Positions 17,391 through 55,139 of a stretch of 57,042 nucleotides of DNA are shown here, in pieces; position 1 is the stretch's first letter; the number at the start of each line of letters is the position of its first letter. A model generated the notes under the pieces. It made no database searches, was not told the DNA's origin, and worked only from the letters and a program-made list of their open reading frames with translations. The stretch lies in contig NZ_JADWYU010000245.1 in assembly GCF_016786325.1 (NCBI RefSeq), positions 1 through 57,042 of the forward strand, written 5' to 3'. Source of the stretch: Frankia nepalensis. Lineage in GTDB: Bacteria; Actinomycetota; Actinomycetes; Frankiales; Frankiaceae. A program made the position numbers and the translations under genes.

Positions 17391-17614
17391 TCCCCACAGG
17401 CCTGACCGGTCCTGGAGTTCCACCTGGTCCGAGTGGGCGCCAGAGGTACCGAATGGGCCGGTCGAGCCCCGAGAAGGTCCGGTTGACGGGCGGATGTTCG
17501 TGGGCGGAAGGTAGCCGGGGCGTGGGAAACGGGGCCGCCCGGGCCGGCGGGAGCCGCCGGCCTGCCGGTGGGCCGCCGGTCCACCCGCGGAGGTCCCCAG
17601 GAACGGGAGTGGGC

Positions 17615-19315
17615 GTGGCTGACGGCCGACATGACGACGCGGACGTGATCGTCGTTGGGGCGGGGCTCGCCGGGCTGGTGGCGACGGCGGAGCTCGCCGA
17701 CGCCGGGCGGCGGGTCATCCTCGTCGAGCAGGAGAACGAGGCGAACCTGGGTGGGCAGGCGTTCTGGTCGCTCGGTGGTCTGTTCCTGGTCAACTCCCCC
17801 GAGCAGCGCCGGATGGGTGTGCGCGACTCGTTCGAGCTGGCCTGGCAGGACTGGCTGGGCACCGCCGGCTTCGACCGGGAGCGCGCGGACCACTGGCCGC
17901 GGCAGTGGGCCCGGGCCTACGTCGAATGGGCGGCCGGCGAGAAGCGGGCCTGGCTGCACGCGATGGGTGTTCGCTGGTTCCCGATCGTCGGATGGGCGGA
18001 ACGCGGCGGCTACGGCGCCGACGGCCCGGGCAACTCGGTGCCACGGTTCCACCTGACCTGGGGCACCGGGCCGGCGGTGGTCGCGCCGTTCGAGCGACGG
18101 GTGCGGGCCGCCGTCGACCAGGGGCTGGTCACGATCCGCTACCGCCACCAGGTCGACGCGCTGACGCTCACCGGCGGGACGGTCGACGGCGTGCGCGGCA
18201 TGGTGCTGGAGCCGAGCACGACGCCGCGCGGCGTCGCCTCGTCCCGCGCGGGCACCGGCGAGTTCGAGCTGCGCGCCCAGGCGGTGATCGTCACGTCCGG
18301 GGGGATCGGCGGCAACCATGAACTCGTCCGGGCGAACTGGCCGGAACGGCTCGGCGAGCCGCCGAAGCACATGATCACCGGGGTGCCGGCGCACGTCGAC
18401 GGCCGGATGCTCGCCATCAGCGAGGCCGCCGGCGCGAGCCTGATCAACCGCGACCGGATGTGGCACTACACCGAGGGCATCACCAACTGGGACCCGATCT
18501 GGCCGAACCACGGCATCCGGATCCTGCCCGGCCCCTCATCGCTGTGGTTCGACGCGACCGGCCGGCTGCTGCCGCCGCCGCTGTTTCCCGGTTTCGACAC
18601 CCTCGGGACGCTCGCTCACATCCAGCGCACCGGCCACGACCACACCTGGTTCATCCTCACCCAGAAGATCATCGAGAAGGAGTTCGCCCTCTCCGGCTCC
18701 GAGCAGAACCCGGACGTCACCGGCAAGGACATCCGGCTGCTGCTGCGGCGCCGATTCGGCGAGGGCGCGCCCGGGCCCATCGAGGCGTTCAAGAAGCATG
18801 GCGTCGACTTCGTCGTCCGCGACGACCTGCGTGCGCTCGTCGACGGGATGAACGAGCTCACGCCCGCCCCGCTGCTGCGTTTCGAGGACATCGAACGCCA
18901 GGTGCTCGCCCGCGACCGCGAGATGGCGAACCCGTACACCAAGGACCTGCAGATCGCCGCCCTGCGCGGCGCGCGCCTCTACCGGGGCGACAAGCTCATC
19001 CGGGTCGCCACGCCGCACCGGTTCCTGGACCCGAAGGCCGGCCCGCTCATCGGCGTGAAGCTGCACCTGCTGACCCGCAAGACCCTTGGCGGACTGGAGA
19101 CCGACCTCGACGGCCGGGTGCTGCGCCCCGACGGCCGGGTGCTGCGCCCCGACGGCCGTGAGCCGCTGCCCGGCCTGTACGCCGCGGGCGAGGTCGCCGG
19201 GTTCGGCGGCGGCGGCGTCCACGGCTACCGCTCCCTGGAGGGCACCTTCCTCGGCGGCTGCCTGTTCTCCGGCCGCGCCGCCGGCCGCGCGGCCGCGGCG
19301 GCGACCGCCGGCTGA
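17615..19315 (+). CDS. FAD-binding dehydrogenase, 3-ketosteroid-1-dehydrogenase-like
   Basis: A 566-residue flavoprotein of the FAD_binding_2 (fumarate reductase/succinate dehydrogenase flavoprotein) superfamily. The dinucleotide motif 'VIVVGAGLAGLVATAELA' is at about residues 10-27 and the C-terminal FAD motif 'GLYAAGEVAGFGGGGVHG' at about 515-532. 'QAFWSLGGLFLVNSPEQRR' and 'LGGCLFSGRAAGR' are typical of actinobacterial FAD-binding dehydrogenases. GTG 17615 follows GGGAG; GTG 17609 is an alternative. A duplication of 'GRVLRPD' occurs near residue 500. A decayed copy of its 3' end lies at 20366-20535. The substrate is unknown. Confidence 0.9.
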   Translation: MADGRHDDADVIVVGAGLAGLVATAELADAGRRVILVEQENEANLGGQAFWSLGGLFLVNSPEQRRMGVRDSFELAWQDWLGTAGFDRERADHWPRQWARAYVEWAAGEKRAWLHAMGVRWFPIVGWAERGGYGADGPGNSVPRFHLTWGTGPAVVAPFERRVRAAVDQGLVTIRYRHQVDALTLTGGTVDGVRGMVLEPSTTPRGVASSRAGTGEFELRAQAVIVTSGGIGGNHELVRANWPERLGEPPKHMITGVPAHVDGRMLAISEAAGASLINRDRMWHYTEGITNWDPIWPNHGIRILPGPSSLWFDATGRLLPPPLFPGFDTLGTLAHIQRTGHDHTWFILTQKIIEKEFALSGSEQNPDVTGKDIRLLLRRRFGEGAPGPIEAFKKHGVDFVVRDDLRALVDGMNELTPAPLLRFEDIERQVLARDREMANPYTKDLQIAALRGARLYRGDKLIRVATPHRFLDPKAGPLIGVKLHLLTRKTLGGLETDLDGRVLRPDGRVLRPDGREPLPGLYAAGEVAGFGGGGVHGYRSLEGTFLGGCLFSGRAAGRAAAAATAG

Positions 19316-19491
19316 CCGGCTGGCCGGCTGGCCCGCCGCCCCGCCCCGCCCCGCCCCGGCGCGGCCATGCCGTCCGCCGGCGCCGGGCCCGCCACTGCCA
19401 CGCGGCCGGCCGGCCGGCCGGCGCAGCGTCGGATCCGCGGGCGCGAGGATGCACCGCCCGCGGCGCCGACTGGCTCTGGCGGCGCCGCGCG

Positions 19492-20213
19492 TCAGGGCCT
19501 GGCGGACCAGTCGTGGCCCTGAAAACCGCCGCCCGGGTGGCCGCCGGTCGTGTCCCCGTATGGCCCGCCGGTCGGGTAGTCTCCGGTCGTGCCGCCCGGC
19601 GGCAGGGCGGGCCTGGCCGGCGGCGGAACTGGCGGCGTCCTGCGCAGGTGTGGCGGGATCTCAACCCGGATGATCTCGCCGTAGGCGAGGAATCGCAGCA
19701 GCACGAAGAACCAGTGCGGTGGCCAGACCTCCAGCCGCATGGGCGCCTGGTTGCTGAGCATGAGGATGATCCCGGTGCCATCGACGCCGGAGGACCGAAT
19801 CTGCCGGAAGTCGATGTCCCACCAGCCGGACGACAGCGACAGCCCGATGCGGTGGTTCGTCAGGAACAGATGCCCCTGCGCGGTCAGCCGCCACTGCTCG
19901 GCGGCCATCGCGGCGGCCTTCTGCCGCTGGTGACTGTTGTACAGCGCGCTGCCCAGGAGCGACGCGCCGAGCGTCAGGGGGCTGCCGAACGAGACGAACC
20001 AGCCCTGGTTGTAGGTGACGTCGGCGCCGGAATACTGCCAGAGCCGCACCGGCCCCTGCGCGAGCAGCGCCTCGCCGCGCCCGAGCGCGAGCGTCGGCGG
20101 CTGGGGCGGTGGCCGCCACCCGGACGCGAGCGCCTCCCCCAGCTCGGCCCGGCGAGATAGCTCTCCTCATAGGCCGACCGAGGCGCCGCCGGCATCACCG
20201 AGTAGTCAGACAT
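19492..20213 (-). CDS. Unknown protein with apparent 1-base frameshift
   Basis: The main readable part (from GTG 20049 down to 19492, 185 residues) has 'FLTNHRIGLSLSSGWWDIDF' and 'LMLSNQAPMRLEVWPPHWFF', suggesting a PH/GRAM-like beta domain, and a Gly/Pro/Tyr-rich tail. Upstream, a good N-terminus starting at ATG 20213 ('MSDYSVMPAAPRSAYEES') is in another frame. The two frames join if one base is added near 20148-20150, giving '...YLAG' followed by 'ELGEALASGWRPPPQPPT'. So the gene carries a real or sequencing frameshift. Function unknown, possibly membrane-associated. Confidence 0.6.
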
Positions 20214-20365
20214 GCCACGCCATCCCCGCGCCATCCCCCGCGTCCGGTTAACACATAGTGTCACCATTCGCCCACGCTGTCGACGGCGGGCCGCCGGCCG
20301 CGTGGGGCGATGATCGAGGTAACCTGCCGACCGGCGGTTCCGCAGCCGGACCCTCATTGGTCGGC

Positions 20366-20535
20366 CGGTTTTGGAGACCGACCTCGAAGGCGGGTGCTGT
20401 GCCCGGACGGCTACGAACCGCCGCCCGGCCTGTACGTCGCGGGGCGAGGTCGCCGGGTTCGGCGGCGGCGTCCACGGCTACCGCTCCTTGGAGGGCACCT
20501 TCCTCGGCGGCCGCCTGTTCTCCAGCCGCGGCAGC
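20366..20535 (+). pseudogene. Decayed copy of FAD-dehydrogenase C-terminus
   Basis: This stretch matches the last part of the FAD dehydrogenase gene (about 19090-19280) base for base over long runs. Readable pieces are 'METDLEG', 'GEVAGFGGGVHGYRSLEG' and 'TFLGGRLFS', but the reading frame shifts at least once between them (the piece around 'PPPGLYVAG' is in another frame). There is no N-terminal part. It is a duplication remnant, either from recombination or from loss of a paralogous gene. Confidence 0.8.
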
Positions 20536-20569
20536 GAGTTGAGCTCAGCGCATCGGACCGCTCGTCTCT

Positions 20570-20609
20570 ACCCTGCCAGACGGCTGGCAGGCCGGCCGTC
20601 TGGCAGGGT
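20570..20609. terminator. Hairpin terminator of the TIR/STAND operon
   Basis: 15-bp perfect arms (ACCCTGCCAGACGGC and its complement) around a 10-base loop. It lies 31 bases beyond the stop codon of the minus-strand trypsin-STAND gene, so it ends that operon and insulates it from the plus-strand debris on the left. Confidence 0.8.
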
Positions 20610-20640: not shown

Positions 20641-23600
20641 CTATCGCCGGTCGAGGTCAGGCTCGGTATCCAGCGCGTAGAGGCGCTGTTCTGCTTCGGT
20701 CAGCCTCCGGATCGCACGGGCCCGCAGTTCGTCGGCAATCGCCGTCGGGTCGACGAGCCAACGGCGCGCACCCTTGTCCTCGCTCCCGGTTACGACATAC
20801 CGCCCGTCGGGCGAGAACGCCACCGAACGCACGGCCTCCTCATGGTCGAGACGAGCGACCTCCAGCCCGCGTTCCGCGTCGAGCACCCGTGCGCTGCCGT
20901 CCTCACTTCCAGTCACGATGTATCGTCCATCCACCGAGAACGCCACAGCGCGCACTGGGCCTTCATGCTCGACCCGGATGACCTCCGCCCTCGTTGCGCC
21001 CACAATCACGAACATCCGCGCGCTGTTGTCGTCGCTTCCAGTCGCGACGTGCCGGCCCGTGGGCGAGAACGCCACCGTCCGCACGGCATCCTGATGCTCG
21101 AAGCGGGCGACCTCCACGCGCGTCGCCAGCTCGAAGACCCGCGCGGTCCGGTCGGCGCTGCCGGTCGCGATGTGGCGGCCGTCCGGCGAAAACGCCACCG
21201 ACCACACCGCCTCCTTGTGTGGGAAGTTCATCATCTCGGCGCCGCCTATCGCCTCGCTGACCCTGACGGTGCCTTCGTCGCCACCCGTTGCGACATATCG
21301 GCCGTCTGTCGGCGAGAACGCCACGCAAAAGACCGGCCCGTCATGGCGGACTTGGCCAACCTCGGCGCCCCCGACCGCCTCGAACACCATCGCGAGGCCG
21401 TCGTTGCCGCCGCTGGCAACCCACCGGCCATCCGGCGAGAAGGCCACCGAAAGTACAGGGCCGTCGTGCCGCACGCGAGCGGCCTCGGCGCCCCCGACCG
21501 CCTCGAACACGACAGCGTCGAACACCGCGGCGTCAGGGTCGTCGCCGCCGGCGGCGACATACTGGCCATCCGGCGAGAAGGCGACCGAGCGGATCACACC
21601 CCCGTGCCGCAGGGAGCCCACGCTGGTCCTGTCGGCCGTGCTGAAGACGTGCACGCCGCCATCGCCGCCGGCGGCGATGTAGTGGCCATTCGGCGAAAAG
21701 GCGACCGACGACACCCAGTGATCCTCGCCAAGGTGCACCGCGTCCGCGCCGTTCAGCGCGCCGAAGACCCTGGCCTCGCCGTCGTCGCTGCCAGCCGCGA
21801 GGAACCGGCCGTCCGGGGAGAACTCCATCGAGTGCAACAACCGGGCGTCAAACGCCAACCGGCAGGTCTCGGCCCAGGTCACCGTGTCGAAGACCCGCAC
21901 ATGGTTGATGGAGGTCCCCATCGCAAGGAGCCCGCCGTCCGGCGAGAACGCCTGCACGGTCCCGGCGCCTTCGAACTCGGCGACCAGCGACCAAGTATCC
22001 GAGGAGAACACTCGCATTCCACCGTCGTTGCCGAGCACGGCGACTACTAGCCCGGTCGGCGAACAGGCCACCGACCGGACATCGGCCCTCACGTGGCGAT
22101 GCACGATCTCGCTACCACTGGCGACGTCAATGACGCGCACGCCGCCGTCACCCCAGCCGGTCACAAGTTGCCGACCGTCCGGCAAGAACGCGGTGGCAGT
22201 GGCCGCGAAGTCACGCTCGATGCTGATGGTTGGTGTACCACCAGTCACCGCGAACAACATCACAGCATGGCGCCGATTGCCCGAGCTCCGCGTAGCAACG
22301 ATGCGGCCGTCGGGCGAGAAGCGTGCCTCGGCAACGAAGCCGTCCTCGTCAATGTGGGCTGTCGGTGTCCAGCCGGCCGTCTCGAACACACTGGCGCCGC
22401 CGACGCCTGCGGTCGAGAGATACCCGCCATCCCGCGAGAACGCCACCGCTCCGACGATGTCGGCCCGGGATCTGAGCTGGCAGACATTCTCACCGGTGGT
22501 GGCGTCGGACACTCGGGCGCCGTCGCCACGGCCAGCCGTAACGATCCATCTTCCGTCCGGCGAGAACACGACGCTCGTCACATGGTCGCTGTGGTTGACG
22601 CGAACGGCCTCCAAACCCGTGGCTAGGTCGAACATCCGGACGGTGTGGTCGTAGCTGGCCGTCGCCACGGCTCGTCCCTCGGGGGAGAACACGACGGAGG
22701 CCACCCCGCTACGGTGGTACAGCCCGTGGATAAGGCGGGGAGGCAGACGCAGCACCCGACGGGCCACACGGTCGCCGTGCACTGTCCGGACACGCCGAAG
22801 GGATTCGGCTGCCAGGATTCCCGGAATGGCCGGCGCGACGGCGCGCCGACTGAGTGCCAGCTCCGCCTCTGCGGCCAAGCGCAGGGCGTCGCTGCGCAGT
22901 GCCAGATCGCGTAGCCGCTCGACGGTACGCGCGTGCGCCGCCGCACTGCGCTCCACTAGGTCACGGATGGCGACGGGGATATCGTCAGGTCGATCGGCGA
23001 GCCAGCGCTGCGCCTCGGCGAGCCAGCTCTCAGGCAGAAGGTCGTCCGGGCCATGTCCGAACTCGTCGAGGCGGGTACGCCAGCGGACAAGATCTGCTTC
23101 CTGGCTGACGAGCTGAGCCAGCCACACCCAACTGTCGAGCAATGCCTCGTGCGCGAGTTCCGCCGTGGGGGTGCCACCACCGCCACGATCGAGAACGACC
23201 AGGCGCGCCCTGGCCAGCACACGCATGACCGACCAGTCGCCTACATCGTCGCGGCGGACGATACGCCGCATCGCCGGAGTGCCATCGGCGCCCGAGCGGA
23301 ACAGCGCTAGTAGCGCGCGGCGCAGCCTCGGCTCATCGACGACGCCCGAGCGCAGGATATCCTCAACCACACTTTCGGCGTACCGGCCGAGGGCGCCGGA
23401 CACCGCGTCGAGATGCTGGTACGCCTTGTGTTCGATGCGGCCGCCACGTTGGGCCTCCCACAGCTGTCCCAGCGCGAACTCCAGCAGCGGCAGTCGGCCG
23501 GTGCCCTTCCCCGCATCGCGGATCAGCTGGTCGACCAGGCTGGGATCGTACTCCACCCCCCGTTGCCTGGCCGGCTCAACGACCGCTCGACGCAGCGCCT

Positions 23601-24930
23601 CGGGCTGCATCGCTTGGACACTCACGACCCGATCTACCAGGCTGGCCCGGACCTCAGGATGGACCTGCAGTTCGCCAAACCGGTCGGAGCGCAACGCGAC
23701 CAGCACCCGCACGGAGCCCACGGCGGCCGGCGGTTCGGTGAGAAGCGCCCGCACGACCGCTGCCGCGTCCCGGCGCGCCCGCTCATCGGGCCCGTCCACG
23801 GCGAGACATTCCTCGAACTGGTCGGCGAGGATCAACATCCGTCCATCCCGGGTCGACGCGAGGCGGGCGGCGCGGGCGAAGATCCCTTCTCGGCGGATCT
23901 CGTCCTCCAGCGCGGGCAGCAGGTCGAGGGGCACCTGATCGGGCGACGAGAGATTCTTCTCAGCCTGCAGCAACGCGGCGGCGAGCCTGGTCAGCGGGGA
24001 GGCGCCCGGCCGATAACGCATGACCGTCCAACCGCCAGCGGCCACCAGCCGCGGTACGAGGCCCGCGTGCAGGAGCGACGACTTACCCACCCCGGATGGA
24101 CCGATCACGCAGGTCAGGCCGTCCCGCTCCACCTTGTCGACAAGGTGGTCGGCCTCAATCTCCCGGCCAACGAACACGTCGGCGTCCGCAGGCTCGAAGG
24201 CGGCAAGCCCGCGGTAGGGCGACGGCCGCCGAACGCGACAAATCTCGGGCCAGAACTCCTCGAGCCGGGCTGCCGGAATCGCATAGCTGTCCGAAGGCTG
24301 GCCGGCGGGCGCGTCCTCGTCCGGCTCGGGTGCCGCGCAGAACAACCCGACCACGCGGTGTGCCTCGTCGAACACAGGCCCGCCGCTGTATCCCGGCTGC
24401 GGGGCGAGCGCCGCGTTTGGGTGCCTGTCCAACTGGAGGAGGCCGTTTTCCACCCGGCCCTTCACCGTGCCGTCGCTCCAGCCCCCGCCGGGACGCGGCG
24501 GTTCGCCCGGATATCCGAACATCGCCACCTTCGTGCCCGGGACCTCGCCGCCGGGCACGAGGGTGGCGACCGCGGCCGCCGGGAGGCGCTTGCCGCGGAT
24601 CTCCAGGCCGGCGAGGTCGCCGGGGGCCACGCCTGTCCTTGGCGGCGGCTCCCAGCGCACCACTTCCGCCTCGTATACGCCAAGGCCGTCCAGTAGCGGG
24701 AAGTCGACAAGCACCTTCCGAGTGAGCTTGCTTGCCTGATCTCGTTTGTCGCGCAGCCCCAAGGCCGTGTTGACCACATGAGCGCAGGTGACGACGTACC
24801 GCTCGCCTACCAGCACGCCCACCCCGGCCGCCGTCTCGGACAGGCCGGTCCGGAACTTGATGACCGACACGACGTGTCCGTCGTCAGGCGCCGGCATTTC
24901 CCGTGCCGCCCGCCGAGGCGTTCGCGCCAC
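20641..24930 (-). CDS. Trypsin-like protease / nSTAND NTPase / WD40 conflict protein
   Basis: A 1429-residue multidomain protein. (1) Trypsin-like serine protease, about residues 18-200, with an intact triad: His51 in 'VVTCAHVV', Asp105 in 'GDLAGLEI', Ser182 in 'GYSGGPVF'. (2) nSTAND1-type AAA+ NTPase, introduced by 'SPYRGLAAFEPADADVFVGR', Walker A 'GPSGVGKSS' (277-285), Walker B 'LILADQFEE' (366-374). (3) About 16 WD40-like repeats from about residue 735 to 1390 (motif 'SVAFSPDGRYVATGS'), enough for two propellers. This is the STAND signalling plan: sensor repeats, switch ATPase, protease effector. The start is either GTG 24930 or ATG 24897; both overlap the upstream Trypco1 gene. It is the last gene of the operon. 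Target and trigger are unknown; phage defence is the likely role (inference from family). Confidence 0.88.
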   Translation of the reverse strand: MARTPRRAAREMPAPDDGHVVSVIKFRTGLSETAAGVGVLVGERYVVTCAHVVNTALGLRDKRDQASKLTRKVLVDFPLLDGLGVYEAEVVRWEPPPRTGVAPGDLAGLEIRGKRLPAAAVATLVPGGEVPGTKVAMFGYPGEPPRPGGGWSDGTVKGRVENGLLQLDRHPNAALAPQPGYSGGPVFDEAHRVVGLFCAAPEPDEDAPAGQPSDSYAIPAARLEEFWPEICRVRRPSPYRGLAAFEPADADVFVGREIEADHLVDKVERDGLTCVIGPSGVGKSSLLHAGLVPRLVAAGGWTVMRYRPGASPLTRLAAALLQAEKNLSSPDQVPLDLLPALEDEIRREGIFARAARLASTRDGRMLILADQFEECLAVDGPDERARRDAAAVVRALLTEPPAAVGSVRVLVALRSDRFGELQVHPEVRASLVDRVVSVQAMQPEALRRAVVEPARQRGVEYDPSLVDQLIRDAGKGTGRLPLLEFALGQLWEAQRGGRIEHKAYQHLDAVSGALGRYAESVVEDILRSGVVDEPRLRRALLALFRSGADGTPAMRRIVRRDDVGDWSVMRVLARARLVVLDRGGGGTPTAELAHEALLDSWVWLAQLVSQEADLVRWRTRLDEFGHGPDDLLPESWLAEAQRWLADRPDDIPVAIRDLVERSAAAHARTVERLRDLALRSDALRLAAEAELALSRRAVAPAIPGILAAESLRRVRTVHGDRVARRVLRLPPRLIHGLYHRSGVASVVFSPEGRAVATASYDHTVRMFDLATGLEAVRVNHSDHVTSVVFSPDGRWIVTAGRGDGARVSDATTGENVCQLRSRADIVGAVAFSRDGGYLSTAGVGGASVFETAGWTPTAHIDEDGFVAEARFSPDGRIVATRSSGNRRHAVMLFAVTGGTPTISIERDFAATATAFLPDGRQLVTGWGDGGVRVIDVASGSEIVHRHVRADVRSVACSPTGLVVAVLGNDGGMRVFSSDTWSLVAEFEGAGTVQAFSPDGGLLAMGTSINHVRVFDTVTWAETCRLAFDARLLHSMEFSPDGRFLAAGSDDGEARVFGALNGADAVHLGEDHWVSSVAFSPNGHYIAAGGDGGVHVFSTADRTSVGSLRHGGVIRSVAFSPDGQYVAAGGDDPDAAVFDAVVFEAVGGAEAARVRHDGPVLSVAFSPDGRWVASGGNDGLAMVFEAVGGAEVGQVRHDGPVFCVAFSPTDGRYVATGGDEGTVRVSEAIGGAEMMNFPHKEAVWSVAFSPDGRHIATGSADRTARVFELATRVEVARFEHQDAVRTVAFSPTGRHVATGSDDNSARMFVIVGATRAEVIRVEHEGPVRAVAFSVDGRYIVTGSEDGSARVLDAERGLEVARLDHEEAVRSVAFSPDGRYVVTGSEDKGARRWLVDPTAIADELRARAIRRLTEAEQRLYALDTEPDLDRR

Positions 24931-25285
24931 TAGTTCCCGCGCCGGCCGGCGACCCGTTGGCGCTCGGCACCTCGGCGAGATGCCAAGTCATCGTGACCTT
25001 GAAGTTCACCTCGGCGGTGCCCTTCGCGAACACCAACCCGGTCTCGCCGCCAACAGTCAGACCGAACTCAACCGTCGTCTCATGCGGGGCGACGGCCACG
25101 AGTCCGTCGCGCACCGCGCGCACGACTGGGAGAACATGCGCCAACGACTCCTGCAAAGTGCGCTGGGCCCGCGCAGTCACCGAGCCGGGGCCGCCAGACG
25201 CAAGCACCAACTCGCCAGGCACGTTGGTCTTGGCGACCTCGACGACCATGACACCGCCGCCCTCAAGCGGCACCTCCATCAACAT
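24884..25285 (-). CDS. Trypco1 (CU044_2847-type) trypsin-co-occurring protein
   Basis: A 133-residue protein. Residues 1-100 match the trypsin-co-occurring domain 1: 'MEVPLEGGGVMVVEVAK', a helix 'TLQESLAHVLPVVRAVRDGL', then 'EVEFGL'-type strand seen as 'TTVEFGLTVGGETGLVFAKG' and 'VNFKVTMTW'. The tail (105-133) is Gly/Ala/Ser-rich. ATG 25285 has GGGGGATC six bases upstream; longer frames upstream overlap the TIR gene and are rejected. It overlaps the start of the trypsin-STAND gene by 14-47 bases. By family knowledge, Trypco1 proteins sit beside trypsin or STAND effectors as adaptor or regulator. Confidence 0.8.
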   Translation of the reverse strand: MLMEVPLEGGGVMVVEVAKTNVPGELVLASGGPGSVTARAQRTLQESLAHVLPVVRAVRDGLVAVAPHETTVEFGLTVGGETGLVFAKGTAEVNFKVTMTWHLAEVPSANGSPAGAGTSGANASAGGTGNAGA

Positions 25286-25316
25286 GACGATCCCCCGTCT
25301 CGTGGCGGCGCGCCGC

Positions 25317-26780
25317 TCAGCGGCGCTTTCCCGGGTACGGCGGTGGCGTGGTGGGCCGGTAGCGTCCCTCCACGGACCGCCGAATCTGTTGCTTGAAAAT
25401 CTCCTTCGCGTCGACATCGTCGAGTCCGACGAGGTCGACGTAGCGGATACCGCTCAGCAGCCCCGCCGGCTCGCAGTCTTCGACCCGGACGGGGATCAGC
25501 GTGCGCTGTAGGCCGTTCGGGTCGCGTTTCCAGGCGTGCTGCCAGGCGGCGCGGACCTTGCTCGACTCCAGGTACGCGGGTGAGAGCACGACGATAGTCC
25601 GCGTCGAGAACCGCACCGCGTCGTCGAGCACCTCGACGTCGAAGTTGCCTGCCTGGACATCCCACGTCTCCAGGTGGATGCGGTAGCCCTCCTCCTCCAG
25701 ATACCAGGCGACCCAGGAGCCCCAGTCCTTGTCCTCCTCGGCGGCCGAGACGAAAAAGTCCCACTTGGCGACGTCCGAGCGAACGTCGGTGACAGTTACG
25801 CTGGTCTGGCCACTAGGCCGAGTAGGTTGGAAACCGGTACCGTCCGCCGCCACCCCGGCCATGCGGCCGGGCAGCGTCAGCCACGCGTTGCCGCGGAACT
25901 TCTCTGTGTGCACCTCGACCTCGCGGAACAGGCCCGGGTCGAGGCCGCGCAGCCGCTCGTGGACCGTCGCGTCGAACAACTCGGAAGAAACAATGAGCGC
26001 CAGGTCCATGTCCGGGGCGTCGGCGAGCGCGTCGCGCACTTGCTGTGCGTCGACCAGCCGGGCGCCAACAACGACCGCGTCGCCCGCCCAGCCGGTTCCG
26101 TCGCGCAGCACGTCACCCTGATGCAGTGCGAGCCGCAGCCGGATCCGGCCGAGATCGCCGCGGGGCCGATTGTAGGCGCGCAGCGCGATCTCCAGCTCCC
26201 GGACGAGGTCGGCGACGATCACGGCCTTGGGAACGGCGGCGGAGACGATCGCGAGGTAACCGTCGCCTCGGTCCTGATCCTCCACCGCGTCCTGCGGAAT
26301 CCCGGCCCGCGCGAGTGCCGTAGCGACGATCTCGCGCAGGCCGTCACGGACCGCTAGTTGGACCAGCATGCCGCGCCTGCTGTAGCCCACAGCATCAAGG
26401 GCCAGCACGGTCACGTGTACTGGCAGATCGAACCAACCCTCCGCGGGGGGCACGACGGACTCTCGCTCCAGGTGACGCTCGCCGGACCGTCCACGCGCCG
26501 CAGCGGCCACCCGGCCGGCCGCGAGCCCCGCGTTGAACACGGTGTTGGCCGGATACTGGTCGCGCGCGCATTGGAGTATCCGACCACGCAGGTCGGGGTC
26601 CCGACTCGCCTCCAGGTACTCGTTGACCGCCTGCCAGTACCCCTCTGACGTGTAGGACCCCGCGATCTGCGGCTGCCGCCGATAGTCCAGGCCCGCGCGC
26701 TGCAGCAGTTGGGACACGCTGATCTGCTGCCAATACACCCGTGCCAGCTCGTGCAGCTCGACATCGCTGAGAAGGTTCAC
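25317..26780 (-). CDS. EAD1 - nucleotidyl cyclase-like - TIR fusion protein
   Basis: A 487-residue, first gene of the operon. (1) Residues 1-90 match the effector-associated domain EAD1: 'LLQRAGLDYRRQP', 'GYWQAVNEYLE', 'YPANTVF'. (2) Residues about 118-305 resemble a class III nucleotidyl cyclase: metal-type Asp129 in 'LALDAVGYSRR' and GDG (Asp173) in 'DRGDGYLAIV', then 'GDAVVVGARL'. (3) Residues 338-470 are a TIR domain: 'WDFFVSAAEEDKDWGSWVAW', 'TRTIVVLSPAYLES'. Six residues after the Ser in 'AYLES', where NAD-cleaving TIRs have Glu ahead of Trp, the residue is Ala412. So NADase activity is doubtful. GTG 26780 follows GGGGGCGG. Cyclase activity is unproven. Probable role: sensing or signalling arm of a conflict system with the two following genes. 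Confidence 0.85.
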   Translation of the reverse strand: MNLLSDVELHELARVYWQQISVSQLLQRAGLDYRRQPQIAGSYTSEGYWQAVNEYLEASRDPDLRGRILQCARDQYPANTVFNAGLAAGRVAAAARGRSGERHLERESVVPPAEGWFDLPVHVTVLALDAVGYSRRGMLVQLAVRDGLREIVATALARAGIPQDAVEDQDRGDGYLAIVSAAVPKAVIVADLVRELEIALRAYNRPRGDLGRIRLRLALHQGDVLRDGTGWAGDAVVVGARLVDAQQVRDALADAPDMDLALIVSSELFDATVHERLRGLDPGLFREVEVHTEKFRGNAWLTLPGRMAGVAADGTGFQPTRPSGQTSVTVTDVRSDVAKWDFFVSAAEEDKDWGSWVAWYLEEEGYRIHLETWDVQAGNFDVEVLDDAVRFSTRTIVVLSPAYLESSKVRAAWQHAWKRDPNGLQRTLIPVRVEDCEPAGLLSGIRYVDLVGLDDVDAKEIFKQQIRRSVEGRYRPTTPPPYPGKRR

Positions 26781-27239: not shown

Positions 27240-28700
27240 ATGGCCGTGAAGACGTTCGAAGCGCAGTCCTGCCACGTCAACGGCAAGGTGTGGGACGCGG
27301 GCGCGCGCCCGCGACGCGCGCTCGTCGACCCGGCCGACGGCCATGTGCTGACCAGCGTTCCGGACAGCGCCGCCGAGGACGTCGACGCGGCGGTCGACGC
27401 GGCGCGGGCTGCATTCGACAACGGTCCGTGGCCGCGGATGAGCGGCCGGGAGCGCTCACGGGTGCTGCTGCGGATCAGCCAGCTGATCCAGGAGCACGCC
27501 GACGAGCTGGCCGAGCTGGAGAGCTACAACGTCGGCAAGCCGATCACCCTGGCCCGGGTCGTCGACGTCTCCACCGCGGTCGAGCAGTACGAGTACTGGG
27601 CCGCGCTCGCGCAGACGCTCGACGGCGCGACCCGGGGCCTACCGATCCCAGCGTTCGCCTACACGGTGCGTGAGCCGGTGGGCGTCGTCGGCGCGATCAC
27701 GCCGTTCAACTTCCCGCTCATCCTTTCGAGCAGCAAGATCGGCCCGGCGCTGGCGGCCGGGAACACCATCGTGCACAAGCCGTCGGACGAGACGCCGCTG
27801 TCCGCGCTGTTCATGGCCCGGCTGTTCACCGAGGCCGGCGTGCCCGACGGCGTGGTCAACGTGGTCACCGGCACCGGGCCGGTCGTCGGCGAGGCGATGC
27901 TGCGCCACCCCGGCATCGACAAGATCGCCTTCACCGGCTCGTCGAAGGTCGGCCGGCACGTCGGCGCCGTGGCCGGTCAGCATCTCAAGCCGGTGACGCT
28001 GGAGCTTGGCGGCAACGGGGCGCACCTCGTCTTCAAGGACGCCGATCTCGACGCCGCGATCGGCGCCGTCATCAAGGCGTTCGTCTTCAACACCGGCCAG
28101 TTCTGCATGGCCGGGCCGCGCCTGCTGGTCGAGCGGCCGCTGTACGAGACGGTGGTCGCCATCCTCGCCCAGGCGGTGCCCGGCGTCCCCGTCGGCGACC
28201 CGCGCGACCCGGGCACCGTCGTCGGCCCGATGGCCGGCGAGCGGCACCTGGCCAAGGTCGAGGAGTACCTGGCCCTGGCGCGGGCCGAGGGCAAGATCGT
28301 GGCCGGCGGCGCGCGCCGGCCCGGTGCCGGCTACTTCGTCGAGCCGACGGTCGTCACCGACCTGCCCGCGACGAGCCGGGTGCTCCACGAGGAGGTCTTC
28401 GGCCCGGTCCTGACGGTGCAGCCGTTCGACGACGAGGACGAGGCGGTCCGGATCGCGAACTCCACCCCGTACGGGCTGTCCGCCGGCCTGCAGACCTCCG
28501 ACCTGGCTCGCGCCCACCGGGTGGCCTCCCGCCTGCACGCCGGCATCGTCTGGGTCAACGACTGGTCGATGCTCGACCCGGCGATGCCCTTCGGCGGCGT
28601 CAAGGGCTCCGGCCACGGCCGCGAGAACGGCCCCGAGGTCCTCGAGGGCTACACAAGGACCAAGTCCGTCCTCATCGCGATGCCCCCCGCCCAGGGCTGA
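27240..28700 (+). CDS. NAD(P)-dependent aldehyde dehydrogenase (aminobutyraldehyde/betaine type)
   Basis: A 486-residue ALDH superfamily enzyme oxidising an aldehyde to the acid. Catalytic Cys289 in 'NTGQFCMAGPR', general-base Glu255 in 'VTLELGGNG', and 'ITPFNFPLILSSSKIGPALA' and 'FTGSSKVGRHVG' of the cofactor fold are all present. Length is normal. The C-terminus 'MPFGGVKGSGHGRENG' is typical of gamma-aminobutyraldehyde, betaine-aldehyde and phenylacetaldehyde dehydrogenases; the exact substrate cannot be fixed. ATG 27240 follows AGGAAAGACGAGGG. The aminotransferase and alanine dehydrogenase 7-10 kb away could belong to the same amine degradation route, but they are not linked in an operon. 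Confidence 0.93.
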   Translation: MAVKTFEAQSCHVNGKVWDAGARPRRALVDPADGHVLTSVPDSAAEDVDAAVDAARAAFDNGPWPRMSGRERSRVLLRISQLIQEHADELAELESYNVGKPITLARVVDVSTAVEQYEYWAALAQTLDGATRGLPIPAFAYTVREPVGVVGAITPFNFPLILSSSKIGPALAAGNTIVHKPSDETPLSALFMARLFTEAGVPDGVVNVVTGTGPVVGEAMLRHPGIDKIAFTGSSKVGRHVGAVAGQHLKPVTLELGGNGAHLVFKDADLDAAIGAVIKAFVFNTGQFCMAGPRLLVERPLYETVVAILAQAVPGVPVGDPRDPGTVVGPMAGERHLAKVEEYLALARAEGKIVAGGARRPGAGYFVEPTVVTDLPATSRVLHEEVFGPVLTVQPFDDEDEAVRIANSTPYGLSAGLQTSDLARAHRVASRLHAGIVWVNDWSMLDPAMPFGGVKGSGHGRENGPEVLEGYTRTKSVLIAMPPAQG

Positions 28701-40148: not shown

Positions 40149-41720
40149 TCATGGCCCGTCGAGTCCCGGCCCGGGGTCCTTGAGCGCCTGTCCGGGGTCC
40201 TCGAGGGTCTGTCCGGCGTCCGGGAGGTCGGCCTCCAGGGTTTCGTCCTGGGGCGCCTCGGCGGCGAAGGAGGCGTCGATGAGGCCAAGCGCGCGCTGTT
40301 CCTGGCCGACAATGCAGCGGGCGTAGACCATGAGCAGGACCCGAACGCTGTGGCCGGCCCACTCGGCGATCTGGGTGGGCGGCACGCCGGCGTTCAGCCA
40401 ACGTGACACGGCGGCGTGGCGCAGGTCGTAGGGCCGCCTGGCCAGCGGGCTGGCGGCCTCGGCGGCGGTCAGCGCCCGCTGGCGGGCAGCCTGCCACACC
40501 TCGACGTAGCGGGCCGTCTTGACGGGCCCACCGGTGGCCGAGCGGAACAGCCGGCCATCCGGCGCCGTCCCGAACCGTTCGAGGTGCCGGCGCAGGAGGG
40601 TCACCAGTTCGGGGTGCAGCGGGACGGGGCGGACCTCACCCTTCTCCCGGTGCTTGAGCTGCTCGCGGGCCTGTCGCGGCCTGTCGGGCGCGTCGGACCA
40701 GCGGGGCGAGATCTCCGGATTGCTCCGCTCGAGCGCGACCTCGCCCCAACCCCGCCTGGGCAGCCGAAGCTGGCTGATGTTCAACTCCTGGACCTCCCCC
40801 GGCCTGATCGCCGCGTAGTAGACACACGCGAAGAACGCCTCCAGGTCAGGGGCGATCTGCGCGACCACGGCCAACAGCCGCAGCGCCCGGCGGTGATCGA
40901 CGACGACCCGCCGATCGACGACCACGACCTTGCGCGGCGGTGTCCACTGCGCGCTGGGAATCGGGTTGGCCTCCAGGTCGCCACGCGCCACCGCGAACTT
41001 CACGACCTGGCCGAAGACCAGCCGCCGCCGGGTGATCGTGTTCGGCGCCGCTGGCTTGCCGTCCAGACGGTGCGACAGCGCCACCAGCGCGGCGCGAGTG
41101 ACCTCGACGTCCGCCAGATCGCCCACCGGTCGGCTGTGCCGCTCCATCCAGGCCAGCACCTCCACCCAGCCCTCGGGTGGCGGGTTCTCGACCCGGCGGC
41201 CGTCGGCCCGCAGCCGCGTGCGCTCCCCGGTGAGGAACACCCAACCCGCCAACGCCTCACGCACCAGGCCGGCGAGCGCGGCCGGCGGCTGCTCGTCGAA
41301 CAATGCGACCGTGACCGGACCCAGCGCCTCGGCGATGGAGCGCCGGGTGCCGGGCGCCTGGTGCTCGGCCCACTTCGCGTCGACAAAGTCGCGGGCGACC
41401 ATGAGCCAGGTACGCACCGGGGGCGGCTCGGGCTCCGGCTGGGGCAGGGCGCGCCACTCCGATATCGGCAGGCCGGACTCGACATCGAACGCCTCACCCT
41501 TCCGCACCGCGGTGAGAATCTCCGCCCGGCGAGACTCCGCGGCCCCCTTCGACTGGAAGCTGCGGGTATTCGGGCTCGGCCGACCGGCAACCTGCCAGCG
41601 CACCTGCCAACTGGTCGCGTTCTTCAGCCGGCGCTCGCGGACGGCCCAGACCCGGACATCGAAGGTAATCCGCCGTTCCTCCCCCTCCGAGGAAGGTCCA
41701 CCGGCCTGAGCGGGACTCAT
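40149..41720 (-). CDS. int: Tyrosine recombinase (site-specific integrase)
   Basis: A 523-residue phage/ICE-type integrase. The catalytic domain has Arg306 in 'YYAAIRPGEVQEL', 'RPYDLRHAAVSRWLNAG' (H-x-x-R), 'WAGHSVRVLL' and the nucleophile Tyr466 in 'LLMVYARC'. A SAM-like N-terminal domain and an arm-binding region precede it. The tail has short repeats (LEDPGQALKDPG) and no catalytic part. It overlaps the upstream excisionase by ATGA, so the two are co-expressed. It is the likely mobilising gene of the accessory island on its right. No tRNA att site was found next to it; the attachment site is not identified. Confidence 0.92.
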   Translation of the reverse strand: MSPAQAGGPSSEGEERRITFDVRVWAVRERRLKNATSWQVRWQVAGRPSPNTRSFQSKGAAESRRAEILTAVRKGEAFDVESGLPISEWRALPQPEPEPPPVRTWLMVARDFVDAKWAEHQAPGTRRSIAEALGPVTVALFDEQPPAALAGLVREALAGWVFLTGERTRLRADGRRVENPPPEGWVEVLAWMERHSRPVGDLADVEVTRAALVALSHRLDGKPAAPNTITRRRLVFGQVVKFAVARGDLEANPIPSAQWTPPRKVVVVDRRVVVDHRRALRLLAVVAQIAPDLEAFFACVYYAAIRPGEVQELNISQLRLPRRGWGEVALERSNPEISPRWSDAPDRPRQAREQLKHREKGEVRPVPLHPELVTLLRRHLERFGTAPDGRLFRSATGGPVKTARYVEVWQAARQRALTAAEAASPLARRPYDLRHAAVSRWLNAGVPPTQIAEWAGHSVRVLLMVYARCIVGQEQRALGLIDASFAAEAPQDETLEADLPDAGQTLEDPGQALKDPGPGLDGP

Positions 41721-41983
41721 GACGCCGCCGGGTCAGACGTCAGGCCGTCCAGCCAGCCGTTCAGATCGTCGCGGGCGACCCGAACCTGCCCATTCGGCAG
41801 CCTGATGACCTTCGGCCCTCTGCCCTTGCGCTGCCAGTCATGCCAGGTCGACCGCGGCAACGGACCGGCGGGACCACCCAACTCCGCGAGCACCTGTTCG
41901 AGGGTCAGCAGCACCCGCTGATCGGTCCGCGGCGCCGGCGTCCTCGCCTGGGTGGGCCTCACCGGCCGGCCTATCGTCGTCAT
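41717..41983 (-). CDS. xis: Excisionase-like MerR/HTH_17 DNA-binding protein
   Basis: An 88-residue protein with a winged helix-turn-helix of the AlpA/Xis type: 'LTLEQVLAELG', 'LPRSTWHDWQRKGRGPKVIR' and the wing 'GQVRVARDDLNGWL'. It is placed directly before the integrase with a 4-base overlap, the usual xis-int order in actinobacterial integrative elements. It probably directs excision and may bind the att region or the promoter (inference). Confidence 0.85.
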   Translation of the reverse strand: MTTIGRPVRPTQARTPAPRTDQRVLLTLEQVLAELGGPAGPLPRSTWHDWQRKGRGPKVIRLPNGQVRVARDDLNGWLDGLTSDPAAS

Positions 41984-42685
41984 GGCACCGCACGATCCGA
42001 ACCGATGTCATCGCCACCCACACCGCGAAGGCCATCGCCCCGGACATCGCCGCGCATTCCGACATCCGGCGGGCACGCCGGTCTCACTGTCGTCTCGCGG
42101 GCCAACGGCGACCGGCCAGCCCTCCACAACAGTCTGTCGGGGCAACCCGAACAACGTCACTGTGTTGTTTGGACCCGCCCCGCGAGGCCCGCCGACCACG
42201 ACGGAATTCCGCGATGCGTGGTCGGGTGTCATGCGCGAGGGCCGACACGATGACCGGGCTGACGACAATGCCGCCTCACGACTCGACAGTCCCCAGGAAA
42301 CATTTTGATCACGTTCAAGTGAGGATGCGTCAACAGTGTTGACTATCTTGTGGGTCTCGTCGAACAGCGAGAGTCCGGCGTCGCGAATGCGTTCGACAGC
42401 CAGACGGCCTCGTACACCCACTCGTCGAGGGCATCGTCGACGGCCTCGCGAAGGACATCGCCGCCGACATCGCGGGGCGCCGCGCCCACAGCGACCCGGC
42501 TCAGAGGTTGACCGGCGGGAGGGCTCGCGCGAGGGCCGCTGCGAGGTGTGGAAATTCCAGGGTTGTGCACAGACAGCCGCCGCGGCCTGCCATCACGGGC
42601 CCGGTGATGGTGCCGTGGATTCACCGAAGACCAGACACCCCGGCAGCGGTGGGCTCTGACTGCCCGGAAGACCAAGGGAGACGCG
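41984..42685. other. Degenerate region between xis and two unknown genes
   Basis: About 700 bases with no intact gene. Coding-like fragments exist in shifting frames: around 42375-42420 a frame with 'VANAFDSQTASYTH', and around 42428-42500 another with 'VEGIVDGLAKDIAADIAG'. A related piece near 42005-42060 reads 'VIATHTAKAIAPDIAAHSDI'. The two pieces look like decayed copies of one short helical motif. The region also holds the promoter for the genes that follow. Confidence 0.5.
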
Positions 42686-43063
42686 ATGGGCTGGCATACA
42701 CGAGCAGCGGAACTGACCAACGGCGACGACGAGGCCGGGGCGCGGGCCGCGTTGATACTGCTCGAACACGCCGCGTCCGGGCTGCTGCACGCCCCGGCCC
42801 GCGAGACCCTGGCCGGGCTGACCGCACGGGCAGACGTGCACCTGGCCGTCTACGAACTCGACACCGCCGGGATCACTGTCCCCCCGGCGTTCGAGGCCGG
42901 CCCGGAGCAGGTCACCACCAGCGACGTCCGGCCACTGCTCGAAAGGGCGGCGTTCCTACTGGCCGCGACGGTCGACACCGTCGCCTATCCGGTTCCGGTC
43001 GCCTTCGCGGCGATCCACACCCGCCAGGCCCTCTCGGCGCTTTCGGCCCTGGGCCATGAGTAG
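42686..43063 (+). CDS. Hypothetical helical protein, first of an overlapping pair
   Basis: A 125-residue mostly helical protein, no family recognised. It starts with 'MGWHTRAAELTNGDDEAG' and is Ala/Leu-rich. ATG 42686 has GGAGACGCG before it. Its end overlaps the next start by 8 bases, which supports translational coupling and joint function. It lies in the island after xis; a similar pair might be sought beside other actinobacterial integrases. Confidence 0.7.
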   Translation: MGWHTRAAELTNGDDEAGARAALILLEHAASGLLHAPARETLAGLTARADVHLAVYELDTAGITVPPAFEAGPEQVTTSDVRPLLERAAFLLAATVDTVAYPVPVAFAAIHTRQALSALSALGHE

Positions 43064-44684
43064 TCCGGTCACCTACGGCCACCTCGCCGACCTGGCTGTG
43101 CACACCGCCGCTCGCGCCGCGGGCCGGCGCGCACCCCGACCCGTCGAGGCGGACATCGCCGGGCTCGTAGCCCTGGTCCGGGTCGCCGGCCGCCACGCCC
43201 GGCTATTGTCCCAGCGGTTCGGCACCTCCCACCCCGCGGCGCGCCTCGCCGACCTCACCGAGGCGGCACTCGCCACCCTCCCACCAGCTGATCCCCCACC
43301 GCGAGGCACGCAGATGGCGAGCCCCTGGCACACCGCGGCCGACCAGCTCGCGCTCGCCCACGACCTGCTCGCCCAACAGATCGGCCCCGACGGCCAGGAC
43401 CTCGGCCCCGACGCCCGCCACCTTGCCGACCGCAACGCCACCACCACGGCAACAGGCCGGGTCGCGACCCTGACAGCACTCGCCGCTGGCACCGCCCAGG
43501 AACTACTCACCGAACAACGCACCACCGCACCACCGGGCTCACCGGAACGGACACCCGTCGTCTCCAGCAGCCAACTACCCCCCGCAACGCGAACCCTGTG
43601 GCTGATCTCCGGCCTCGCCGTCCCAGCCGCCGACCTCGTCGACCAGTGCGGCGGCCCCGACCGCCCCGGCCCGCTCGACGACCTCCAACCCCTCTTCCCC
43701 AGCCAGGACATGCCCGTCCTGGACCGAAGGCTCGAACAACTCCGCCTCGCCGCGTTCGTCCTCAGCCAACCCGACGCCTCCCCCACCCACCACGCCCTGC
43801 TCGCCCTCGCCGACTTCGCCGCGATCGTCGCCGGCCAGACCAACCTCGCCCTACGCCCCTACAGCAACCCCGGCAGGAGAACCGCCTCCCCCTACGACCA
43901 GGCCAGCCAACAAGCAGTCACCACCGCCGCAGCCTGGGAACCCATCGCACGAGTCCTCACCAACACCGTCTCCCTGGGAACCGAAGGCCACATCGCCATC
44001 CGACTCGCCAACGACACCCGACACCACCTCGCCACCACCCTCGCCGCCGGCAACCCACAAGGCCTGACCCCGTTCCGCCGCGCCGCCCTGATCCTGCCCG
44101 ACCTCGCCGTCAGCGGCGCCGTCACCGTCAAGCGGCTACTCGGCAGCGACCTGCTCACCTACCGAGCCAGCAAGAACACCTACACCCACCTCGACCACCG
44201 ACGCGCCGCCCGCCTCGGCCAGGCCTACACCGACGCACTCACCGCCTCGACCACCCTCGTCGCCCGCCTCACCGAACTCCCCGGCACCCAACCCCGACCC
44301 CACCTCGCCACCCACCTCGGCGCCCAGGCCGCCAGGCCCTCCTCGACCGGCCACATTCAGCGAGCCACCGACACCCGACCACCACAACCAACCATCTCCA
44401 CCGAACCGCGATGGGCCGAAATCCACGACCGCGACCACGGCACACTGCGCTGCCCGACCTCCGACCTCACCCGCGCCCTGCGCCACACCACCGACGACCT
44501 CCGACACATCCTCGGCACGATCGCCCACCGGATAGACCTGACCGGCCAGGAACCCCACCTCACCCTCGCCGCCCTCACCGCCCTCCACCTCCCCAACAAG
44601 ATCACGCCAGCGCCTCGGGATGTCGCTGACCTGGCCATAGGTACGGCGCCACCACCGCCACCGACCGCCGAACTTGATCTCTAA
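43056..44684 (+). CDS. Hypothetical 542-residue helical protein, second of pair
   Basis: No family recognised. It is predicted mostly helical, with Thr/Ala/His-rich stretches such as 'TRHHLATTLAAGNPQGLTPF' and 'LTPFRRAALILPDLAVSGAV'. No membrane helix, nuclease or ATPase motif is visible. The 3' two thirds have extreme base bias: C is dominant at third positions and G is rare (runs like CACCACCTCGCC), unlike the metabolic genes to the left. That points to a different origin, typical of actinobacterial mobile elements. It is co-expressed with the preceding gene; the 4- to 8-base overlap is clear. The role may be transfer, maintenance or an accessory defence function, but none is shown. Confidence 0.75.
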   Translation: MSSPVTYGHLADLAVHTAARAAGRRAPRPVEADIAGLVALVRVAGRHARLLSQRFGTSHPAARLADLTEAALATLPPADPPPRGTQMASPWHTAADQLALAHDLLAQQIGPDGQDLGPDARHLADRNATTTATGRVATLTALAAGTAQELLTEQRTTAPPGSPERTPVVSSSQLPPATRTLWLISGLAVPAADLVDQCGGPDRPGPLDDLQPLFPSQDMPVLDRRLEQLRLAAFVLSQPDASPTHHALLALADFAAIVAGQTNLALRPYSNPGRRTASPYDQASQQAVTTAAAWEPIARVLTNTVSLGTEGHIAIRLANDTRHHLATTLAAGNPQGLTPFRRAALILPDLAVSGAVTVKRLLGSDLLTYRASKNTYTHLDHRRAARLGQAYTDALTASTTLVARLTELPGTQPRPHLATHLGAQAARPSSTGHIQRATDTRPPQPTISTEPRWAEIHDRDHGTLRCPTSDLTRALRHTTDDLRHILGTIAHRIDLTGQEPHLTLAALTALHLPNKITPAPRDVADLAIGTAPPPPPTAELDL

Positions 44685-45149
44685 TCCAGCCACCATCGCT
44701 GAGGACTGGAGGATTATGAGTCAGCTCCCCCGGTCTGTTCCCAGCTTCCGCGCCGTAACGCCTCCTGTCATCTCGTGCCGAGTTTGGCCGGCCCGTACGG
44801 ATTCTCGGCAAGCCGTGATCCTGCGGCATGCCTCCCGGTGCCGGCCTGTGCCGTCAGCTACGCCTCGGTTCGGCCTCGGTCCGGCCCCGGTCGCCACGCC
44901 TCCGGGGCTACGGACAGTGATCACCGGTCAAACTGAGGCGGCGCCCGCCCGCGCGGCCCGGACCCGCAACATCCCGCGACACCGTCGTGGCTACCATCAG
45001 CCGCGGCCGGATGACCGCCCACCGACGCGTCGCCGCAGGCCGCCTGGACGAGCGCGAACCCGCCAGCGAGCGGTAGGGGCGGGAACCGGAAATGAGACAT
45101 CACCAGCGAGAAGATCTTGGAGCGCGGGTTGTTGATGTAACTACGGCAA
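44685..45149. other. Gap with no intact gene
   Basis: About 460 bases between the unknown pair and the IS remnant. I see no reading frame with family features and no clear hairpin. Confidence 0.4.
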
Positions 45150-45278
45150 GACGAGGAGCTGACTGCGGACCGCGGTTCTACTCGTTCGCCAACTGGTCGG
45201 CCGCGGCCAGGACCGGGGCCGACCTGATCTGGCGAGCCCGACCGGCCTGAACCTGCGGTCGTCGGGGTCCTCAAGGAT
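45150..45278 (+). pseudogene. IS4-type transposase fragment
   Basis: The readable bits 'LTADRGFYSFANWSAAARTG' and 'ADLIWRARP' match the second catalytic-Asp region of the complete transposase at 53.2-54.4 kb (there 'LTADRGFYSFDNWTLAAGTG', 'ADLIWRAPTG'). DNA identity is high over about 100 bases. A frame break follows 'RARPA', and no start, other catalytic region or terminal repeat remains. It is a remnant of a related but older IS copy, 150 bases upstream of the NACHT gene. Confidence 0.85.
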
Positions 45279-45431
45279 GTCTTAAGTCATGACATCGGTG
45301 GGGATCCAGCCTTGGCTCTTGCGGCCAATTGGGGTCGGTTTCTCGCATGCTGGTGCTCTCCGGCCAGGGATGAGTAGCCGTTCGCCCGATGGGAGACGTC
45401 TGCTACAGTTCAGGGCGAAACACGCGATCAG

Positions 45432-54639: not shown

Positions 54640-54719
54640 TCATGGCCCGCAAGCTCGTCTGAACGACGAGTCCGTGATCGATCAAGTTCTAGTCCGGAGA
54701 AGAGTCTGATCACGGTCGC

Positions 54720-54983: not shown

Positions 54984-55139
54984 CCGGCTCGCCGCCACCG
55001 ACCCGGACCCGGCTCGCCCGCCACGGCCGGCAATCCACCCGCTCCACCCACGCCCCCGCCGGCCACGCCTCCACAGCCAGACCCGCCGGACTATGCGCCC
55101 GCCGACCATCAGGCACGTGGCCAGGCGGGGCGGGCGGGA

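Follow-up and report, generated by a model that had tools for sequence, protein, structure and literature searches.

A Trypco1 and trypsin-nSTAND1-WD40 gene pair behind an EAD1-cyclase-TIR gene in Frankia nepalensis: probably two conflict modules in tandem

Three co-directional genes and their domains

The analyzed stretch of DNA, referred to as the window, comprises 57,042 nucleotides of Frankia nepalensis (contig NZ_JADWYU010000245.1). It contains a row of three genes on the minus strand: a gene for a protein with EAD1, class III cyclase-like and TIR domains (gene 1, or the TIR gene), a gene of the Trypco1 family (gene 2), and a gene in which a trypsin domain is joined to an nSTAND1 NTPase and WD40 repeats (gene 3, or the protease gene; Table 1). 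In a preliminary description, this row was put forward as a candidate three-part immune system. The common direction of the genes was confirmed. The gap of about 30 bases given there measures 31 bp between the stop codon of the TIR gene and the ATG of Trypco1, and the Trypco1 and protease genes overlap by 47 bp when the GTG start of the latter is used, or by 14 bp with the alternative start, an ATG at 24897.

The domain assignments made earlier were borne out by Pfam and by fold comparison. In the product of gene 1, Pfam recognized EAD1 at residues 4-85 (45.5 bits) and TIR_2 at residues 342-456 (98 bits), and the middle region gave no match to a cyclase family at E<=0.01. The AlphaFold2 model of this protein (mean pLDDT 77.9, pTM 0.45) can be used for the single domains, but not for their arrangement. 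When it was compared with the PDB using Foldseek, class III cyclases were retrieved, with Ma1120 (4wp8) as the best match (E 6.9e-9, target TM 0.69); other class III cyclases, Cya2 and Rv1900c among the matches, reached TM values of up to 0.76.

Gene 2 was assigned to Trypco1 (the CU044_2847 family) with 80 bits in Pfam (cut-off 24.6) and with 66.4 bits against NCBIfam NF041216. Its predicted model has the order beta-beta-alpha-beta-beta. Deducing a mechanism from this fold was given up, since the model is only fair (pLDDT 69.6) and no PDB structure matched it at E<=0.001.

In the product of gene 3, Pfam placed Trypsin_2 at residues 36-196 (67.6 bits) and nSTAND1 at residues 238-623 (290 bits), together with WD40 repeats. 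As described earlier, the catalytic triad is intact (H51/D105/S182); Walker K283 and the motifs GPSGVGKSS and LADQFEE are also present. The number of WD40 repeats had been given as 16, and Pfam counted 11 stretches; 16 blades would nevertheless fit the spacing of ~42 residues from residue 746 to ~1410. Among the best 25 of 52 Pfam families, it is nSTAND1 that follows the trypsin domain. No CARD-like domain was matched by Pfam in any of the three proteins (for gene 3, among the same best 25 of 52 families) or in the trypsin part alone.

The strong hairpin that was said to close the row is real (-59 kcal/mol over 106 nt, z -3.3), and only 2 of 200 shuffled sequences were equally stable. It is, however, no textbook terminator, as it has no T-run, and it was absent from the output of the terminator scan. 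PADLOC reported partial matches only: at most 25.5 bits for the TIR part, 18.8 bits for RT-Protease on the trypsin domain of gene 3, and 92.3 bits for HEAT-ARM_XIII inside the WD40 region. Neither the Rfam scan nor the tRNA scan of the window returned a match.

Table 1. Positions of the genes and other features in the window.
Feature	Position	Strand	Remarks
EAD1 - class III cyclase-like - TIR gene (gene 1)	26780-25317	-	487 aa, GTG start
Trypco1 gene (CU044_2847 family, gene 2)	ATG 25285, stop 24884	-	Pfam, NCBIfam
Trypsin - nSTAND1 - WD40 gene (gene 3)	24930-20641	-	1429 aa from GTG 24930
Hairpin 3' of gene 3	20570-20609	-	15-bp main stem, no T-run
FAD-gene 3' tail, frameshifted copy	20382-20530	+	just past the outer end of the pair (genes 2 and 3)
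Small gene between the FAD-tail duplicates	19492-20049	-	no Pfam family
FAD-dependent oxidoreductase gene	17453-19315	+	named from a reading of the sequence, no family search
Phage-type integrase	40149-41720	-	second conflict cluster
EAD1-NTPase protein	45432-48554		EAD1 marginal; membrane-like stretches (sequence reading)
EAD1-NB-ARC protein	48877-52659		second conflict cluster
IS4-type transposase	53083-54393		second conflict cluster
CATRA-EAD1 protein	55369-57042		runs off the window edge

The Trypco1 and protease gene pair in other genomes

Loci with Trypco1 were collected by scanning genome contigs with patterns derived from 5 close Trypco1 sequences, a procedure that favors close relatives. 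Of 84 candidate loci, 34 were confirmed by Trypco1 alignment. All of these come from named actinobacterial organisms, several stop at contig ends, and two (L084 and L087) appear identical to the contigs of L054 and L055. In 23 of the 34 loci, Trypco1 is followed downstream by a trypsin gene in the same orientation; this count takes in L113, where the trypsin open reading frame starts ~0.9 kb downstream. nSTAND was present in 20 of the 34. In six further loci the trypsin gene was near Trypco1 on the other strand, and in five none was found. A class-wide sample of 27 loci with 1.5-kb flanks, which overlaps the set of 34, yielded a trypsin match in 18. The pair also occurs on plasmids: 26 records were matched, and in 4/4 loci examined Trypco1 is directly followed by trypsin-nSTAND, which is split over two reading frames in one of them.

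The domains encoded by gene 1 were searched for at the same loci. EAD1 was found near Trypco1 in none of the 34, also when a second EAD1 profile was used. TIR was found once (a decayed TIR-NB-ARC piece in Frankia), as was a cyclase domain, ~7 kb away. None of the three was detected within the 1.5-kb flanks of the 27 class-wide loci or at the four plasmid loci. MoxR was likewise absent from the neighborhood of Trypco1 (0/34), with 3/3 positive controls matched. In 35 genomes of the order, a sample that represents one family only, Trypco1 was detected in 3 by a single-protein search and in 6 (7 matches) by profile. The four extra matches seen by profile only are all divergent, and the regions fetched around them had no EAD1, cyclase or TIR. 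One divergent match belongs to a member of the genus (G028), where it lies on another contig.

All 29 aligned sequences have an intact trypsin triad, and all 22 with nSTAND keep the Walker A Lys, the window being included in both counts. Because these residues are conserved, the protease switch looks like a module kept for activity. Together, these results show that Trypco1 and trypsin-nSTAND1-WD40 form a conserved two-gene module, which is found on plasmids too. Of the earlier proposal of an ATPase-switched protease with a Trypco1 partner, the pairing is thus confirmed, and the switching stands as a plausible candidate.

A further arrangement was seen in Micromonospora (L099 and L100), where two Trypco1 and two trypsin genes lie within 6 kb; one pair has the usual order, and the other Trypco1 faces a trypsin gene on the opposite strand.

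The TIR gene and its site in same-genus relatives

Matches to the gene 1 protein at E<=1e-10 were found in 32 of the 35 genomes of the order, its own included, some of them to the TIR domain alone. The preliminary description had proposed to look at the neighbors of TIR homologues, and had named rare co-occurrence as the outcome that would speak against a single system. Such rarity was indeed observed. Among 20 wide-flank regions around homologues with all three domains, including a paralogue in the same genome and some regions that end at contig ends, none showed a flanking match to Trypco1, trypsin or STAND (tblastn, E<=1e-4), and the three-gene arrangement was likewise found at none of the 34 Trypco1 loci. 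A WD40 match without trypsin or STAND occurred in four of the 20 (L038, L041, L045 and L047). The homologues themselves vary: tandem cyclase-TIR genes were seen in L041 and L044, an extra stand-alone EAD1 gene ahead of the EAD1-cyclase-TIR gene in L036 and L042, and three EAD1 copies in the 1451-aa paralogue from the same genome (L049).

To the TIR/cyclase protein, the preliminary description had ascribed a role as signal or adaptor. In the window, the Glu of the TIR motif AEW is replaced by Ala412, at a position facing a Glu of the TIR structure 7uxr, which we take to be the catalytic NADase residue. Among 30 aligned rows, window included, this Glu was present in 8, absent in 21 and gapped in 1, which makes 8 of the 29 rows with a TIR domain; it was also absent in 6/6 genes at the corresponding site, next to a flavin adenine dinucleotide (FAD)-dependent oxidoreductase gene, in relatives. 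The motif of class III cyclases consists of two metal Asp plus the Asn and Arg of NxxxR. The cyclase-like domain has kept Asp129, Asp173 and Arg241, but carries Val237 in place of the Asn, which is found in 1 of the 30 aligned rows. Since both the TIR Glu and the cyclase Asn are replaced, the protein probably makes no signal, and the candidate of an active TIR signal maker was discarded on account of Ala412 and Val237.

The genome (G000) contains 32 EAD1 matches, 31 of them over the cut-off; these are domain matches and not directly comparable with the 22 EAD1 proteins reported as the highest number, for Frankia inefficax (PMC7159879; this and the other papers cited are drawn upon as partial texts). 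Four EAD1 matches lie in the window (26526-26771, 45507-45725, 48910-49143 and 56716-56982). Of the three proteins in the row, only the TIR protein was matched by the EAD1 profile, with none in the protease or in Trypco1. Of the two roles proposed, that of an adaptor is hence the probable one: the product of gene 1 is probably not an enzyme but an adaptor within the network of EAD1 proteins of its genome. Positions 40149-57042 of the window hold a second conflict cluster (Table 1).

The comparison of the site covered 8 genomes of the genus. The FAD gene is present in six of them, own genome included; the other two gave no match at E<=1e-100. In all five other genomes carrying the FAD gene, an EAD1-cyclase-TIR gene lies beside it in convergent orientation. 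The distance between the two is 96 bp in L035, 12 bp in L036, 59 bp in L042 and 51 bp in L043. L041 differs in that they are separated by a second cyclase-TIR gene, at 40 bp from the FAD gene. Neither Trypco1 nor trypsin-STAND was found at this site in any of the five. In the window, 6,001 bp separate the TIR stop from the FAD stop, and this gap holds Trypco1, the trypsin-STAND gene, the frameshifted copy of the FAD tail and a small gene. Because the TIR gene occupies the site in five relatives that have no pair there, it looks like the resident and the pair like a newcomer, and the simplest history suggested by these sequences is an insertion of the module on the 3' side of the TIR gene. A misassembled contig is unlikely, as in L041 and L043 further genes match the window's order on both sides of the site.

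Our preferred explanation is, with a probability of about 0.8, that two independent conflict modules stand in tandem: the inserted pair of Trypco1 and trypsin-nSTAND1-WD40 (module A), acquired in the lineage of this genome, and the resident TIR gene (module B) upstream of it. The three-gene order, which was seen in no other genome examined, would then be an accident of insertion. Co-transcription of the two modules is likely, but would be incidental.

We consider it very improbable that the row is a true three-part immune system, with sensing by WD40, switching by STAND, cleavage by trypsin and a nucleotide signal that is made or passed on by the TIR/cyclase protein. This reading would account for the shared strand, the short gap followed by an overlap and the single terminal hairpin; every family involved is known from conflict systems, and published diversity-generating retroelement (DGR)/ternary loci of other bacteria combine Trypco1, trypsin-like and TIR domains (PMC10907252). 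However, the arrangement was found in 0/34, 0/27 and 0/20 loci in the three samples, five relatives carry the TIR gene at the same site without the pair, and the catalytic Glu and Asn are lacking. Moreover, an EAD1 through which the TIR protein could be bound is present neither in the protease nor in Trypco1, and whereas the loci in print are built around MoxR/vWA cores, MoxR is absent here.

Two other proposals concern what may have followed the insertion. In a recent functional merger, the pair would use the promoter of the TIR gene, and the TIR/EAD1 protein would couple the protease to the EAD1 network, for instance as a substrate. The 31 bp before Trypco1 leave little space for a promoter of its own, no sigma-70-type promoter was found in the region (0 against 0.3 expected), and further EAD1 genes lie in the same window; yet the arrangement was encountered in a single genome, and in actinobacteria the sigma-70 consensus gives poor guidance, so that we regard such a merger as unlikely. 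It is equally unlikely that the row is a newborn fused operon, with a mobile module under the promoter of the resident EAD1-pseudoTIR gene and linked through this adaptor to 30-odd EAD1 domains. If true, this would mean that defence systems are assembled by landing next to adaptor genes at a shared hotspot.

A donor's block of TIR, Trypco1 and protease genes could also have recombined into the place of the resident TIR gene. The duplicated FAD tail is a sign of rearrangement at this site, the closest relatives of gene 1 are not the same for each of its domains, and L043 has a quite dissimilar gene at the site. On the other hand, the nearest sequences to the TIR domain of the window are those of four genes that occupy this site in relatives (70, 64, 64 and 61%), no donor carrying the three genes in this order was detected, and the FAD-tail copy and the FAD gene of the window have bases in common that are missing from the five relatives, which fits a local duplication. 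Block replacement is thus judged to have a small chance of being correct. The duplicate itself is direct (19050-20560), involves ~150 bp of the FAD-gene tail at 88% identity and flanks the small gene. Foreign base composition was unusable as proof of transfer, as the TIR genes at the site in relatives are equally low in GC content at third codon positions (0.81-0.85, compared with 0.88-0.93 in their FAD genes).

Several observations weigh against an insertion of independent modules. The 31-bp spacing between the TIR gene and Trypco1 suggests one transcript, and the probable loss of TIR and cyclase activity was judged from sequence and predicted fold. The wider context was seen on both sides in only two of the five relatives; in L035 a match was seen on the FAD side only, and in L036 and L042 (9.6-kb contig) no further than the FAD gene itself. 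With a TIR domain that is only 45% alike and falls elsewhere in the tree, the fifth site gene (L043) agrees less with the view of a resident gene than those of the other four relatives do. For the cyclase domain of the window, the nearest sequence comes from a gene outside this site (L034, 64%). These two results indicate that the site gene is a mosaic or is sometimes replaced, and the resident TIR gene may have been swapped for that of a donor; the genus is represented by only 8 genomes. In one Frankia (L054/L084), a decayed TIR-NB-ARC gene stands just upstream of Trypco1-trypsin-STAND. The best argument against pure accident is provided by the DGR/ternary loci with MoxR/vWA cores, in which Trypco1, trypsin-like and TIR genes have been reported together (PMC10907252).

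On the other side of the TIR gene, between it and a conserved gene at 29208, the window has an aldehyde-dehydrogenase-like gene (27240-28700; named from a reading of the sequence). In neither L041 nor L043 was a match to it found next to the TIR gene, and the site therefore looks like a small insertion hotspot.

Relation to known systems and possible mode of action

Trypco1 beside a trypsin-like domain was described for the VMAP (MoxR-vWA) ternary systems by Kaur et al. 2020 (PMC7159879). The pair shares with them the adjoining Trypco1 and trypsin-like domain, of the same families, and the occurrence in multicellular actinobacteria. There, Trypco1 stands beside VMAP proteins, whereas here the NTPase is nSTAND1 fused to trypsin with WD40, and MoxR was missing from all 34 loci. 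In addition, none of the 13 AAA_3 matches of the genome lies on the contig of the window. On account of this absence of MoxR, membership in a MoxR-vWA system was rejected, and the pair sets itself apart from VMAP systems in having nSTAND1-WD40 and no MoxR.

Peptidase-STAND NTPases are known from the nSTAND1 clade (PMC8195603), and trypsin-STAND proteins form part of NucA-trypsin systems (PMC7159879). Like these, gene 3 encodes an effector, here trypsin, followed by a STAND NTPase and a C-terminal region; with Walker A and B motifs, the fused peptidase and a repeat sensor, it has the features of the group. The published examples have FGS sensor or death-like domains, as far as the partial texts go, and the window has WD40 and Trypco1. 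CARD-NLR/LypABC systems likewise combine a trypsin-like peptidase with an ATPase similar to nucleotide-binding leucine-rich repeat (NLR) proteins; lysis is triggered there and depends on the Ser and Walker residues (PMC13236601). In contrast to LypABC as described in that text, no CARD-like domain was matched by Pfam here (for gene 3, among the best 25 of 52 families), protease and ATPase are fused, WD40 takes the place of TPR, and the three-gene row has no second trypsin-endonuclease gene.

The DGR/ternary loci resemble the window in having Trypco1, trypsin-like and TIR domains in one neighborhood (PMC10907252); there, these domains are reported with a MoxR ATPase, vWA targets and a reverse transcriptase, and of these MoxR is absent beside the pair here. 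With EAD1-fused effectors (PMC7159879, PMC8195603), the TIR protein has in common its N-terminal EAD1 and the many EAD1 per genome. It differs from them in that its TIR and cyclase-like domains lack key catalytic residues and that the neighboring protease has no EAD1. Judged by Ala412, it does not have the catalytic Glu of the TIR NADases of Thoeris and other TIR systems; compared with class III nucleotidyl cyclases and Pycsar-like systems, it has the fold, but not the Asn of NxxxR.

Trypco1 beside trypsin, the coupling through EAD1 and peptidase-STAND proteins are thus already in print, as the partial texts of PMC7159879 and PMC8195603 show. Preprints aside, the literature searched gave no description of these three genes in this order, nor of a pair of Trypco1 and trypsin-nSTAND1-WD40 that lacks MoxR-vWA.

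From its anatomy and its likeness to LypABC, module A may represent a known kind of system, a suicide protease switch similar to NLR proteins. The WD40 propellers would restrain the NTPase and sense the trigger, as in NLR proteins, and ATP-driven oligomerization of nSTAND1 would then gather the trypsin domains. The activated protease could cut proteins of the cell, leading to a growth stop or to the death of the infected cell. Trypco1, made just ahead of the protease, may serve as its dedicated partner, be it chaperone, inhibitor or substrate. In module B, the dead TIR and the pseudo-cyclase would form a largely non-enzymatic adaptor or scaffold, which may plug into the other EAD1 proteins of the genome by self-association of EAD1.

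Tight spacing, a common strand and matching conflict domains can arise when one module is inserted behind another. Because insertion can mimic an operon in this way, one operon by itself says little in favor of a new system, and system claims that are based on operons can be tested by inspecting the corresponding site in relatives. What is isolated here is a two-gene protease-STAND switch that is portable and has no MoxR partner, next to an EAD1-TIR lineage in which both putative enzymes are apparently dead, which suggests scaffolding over signal synthesis.

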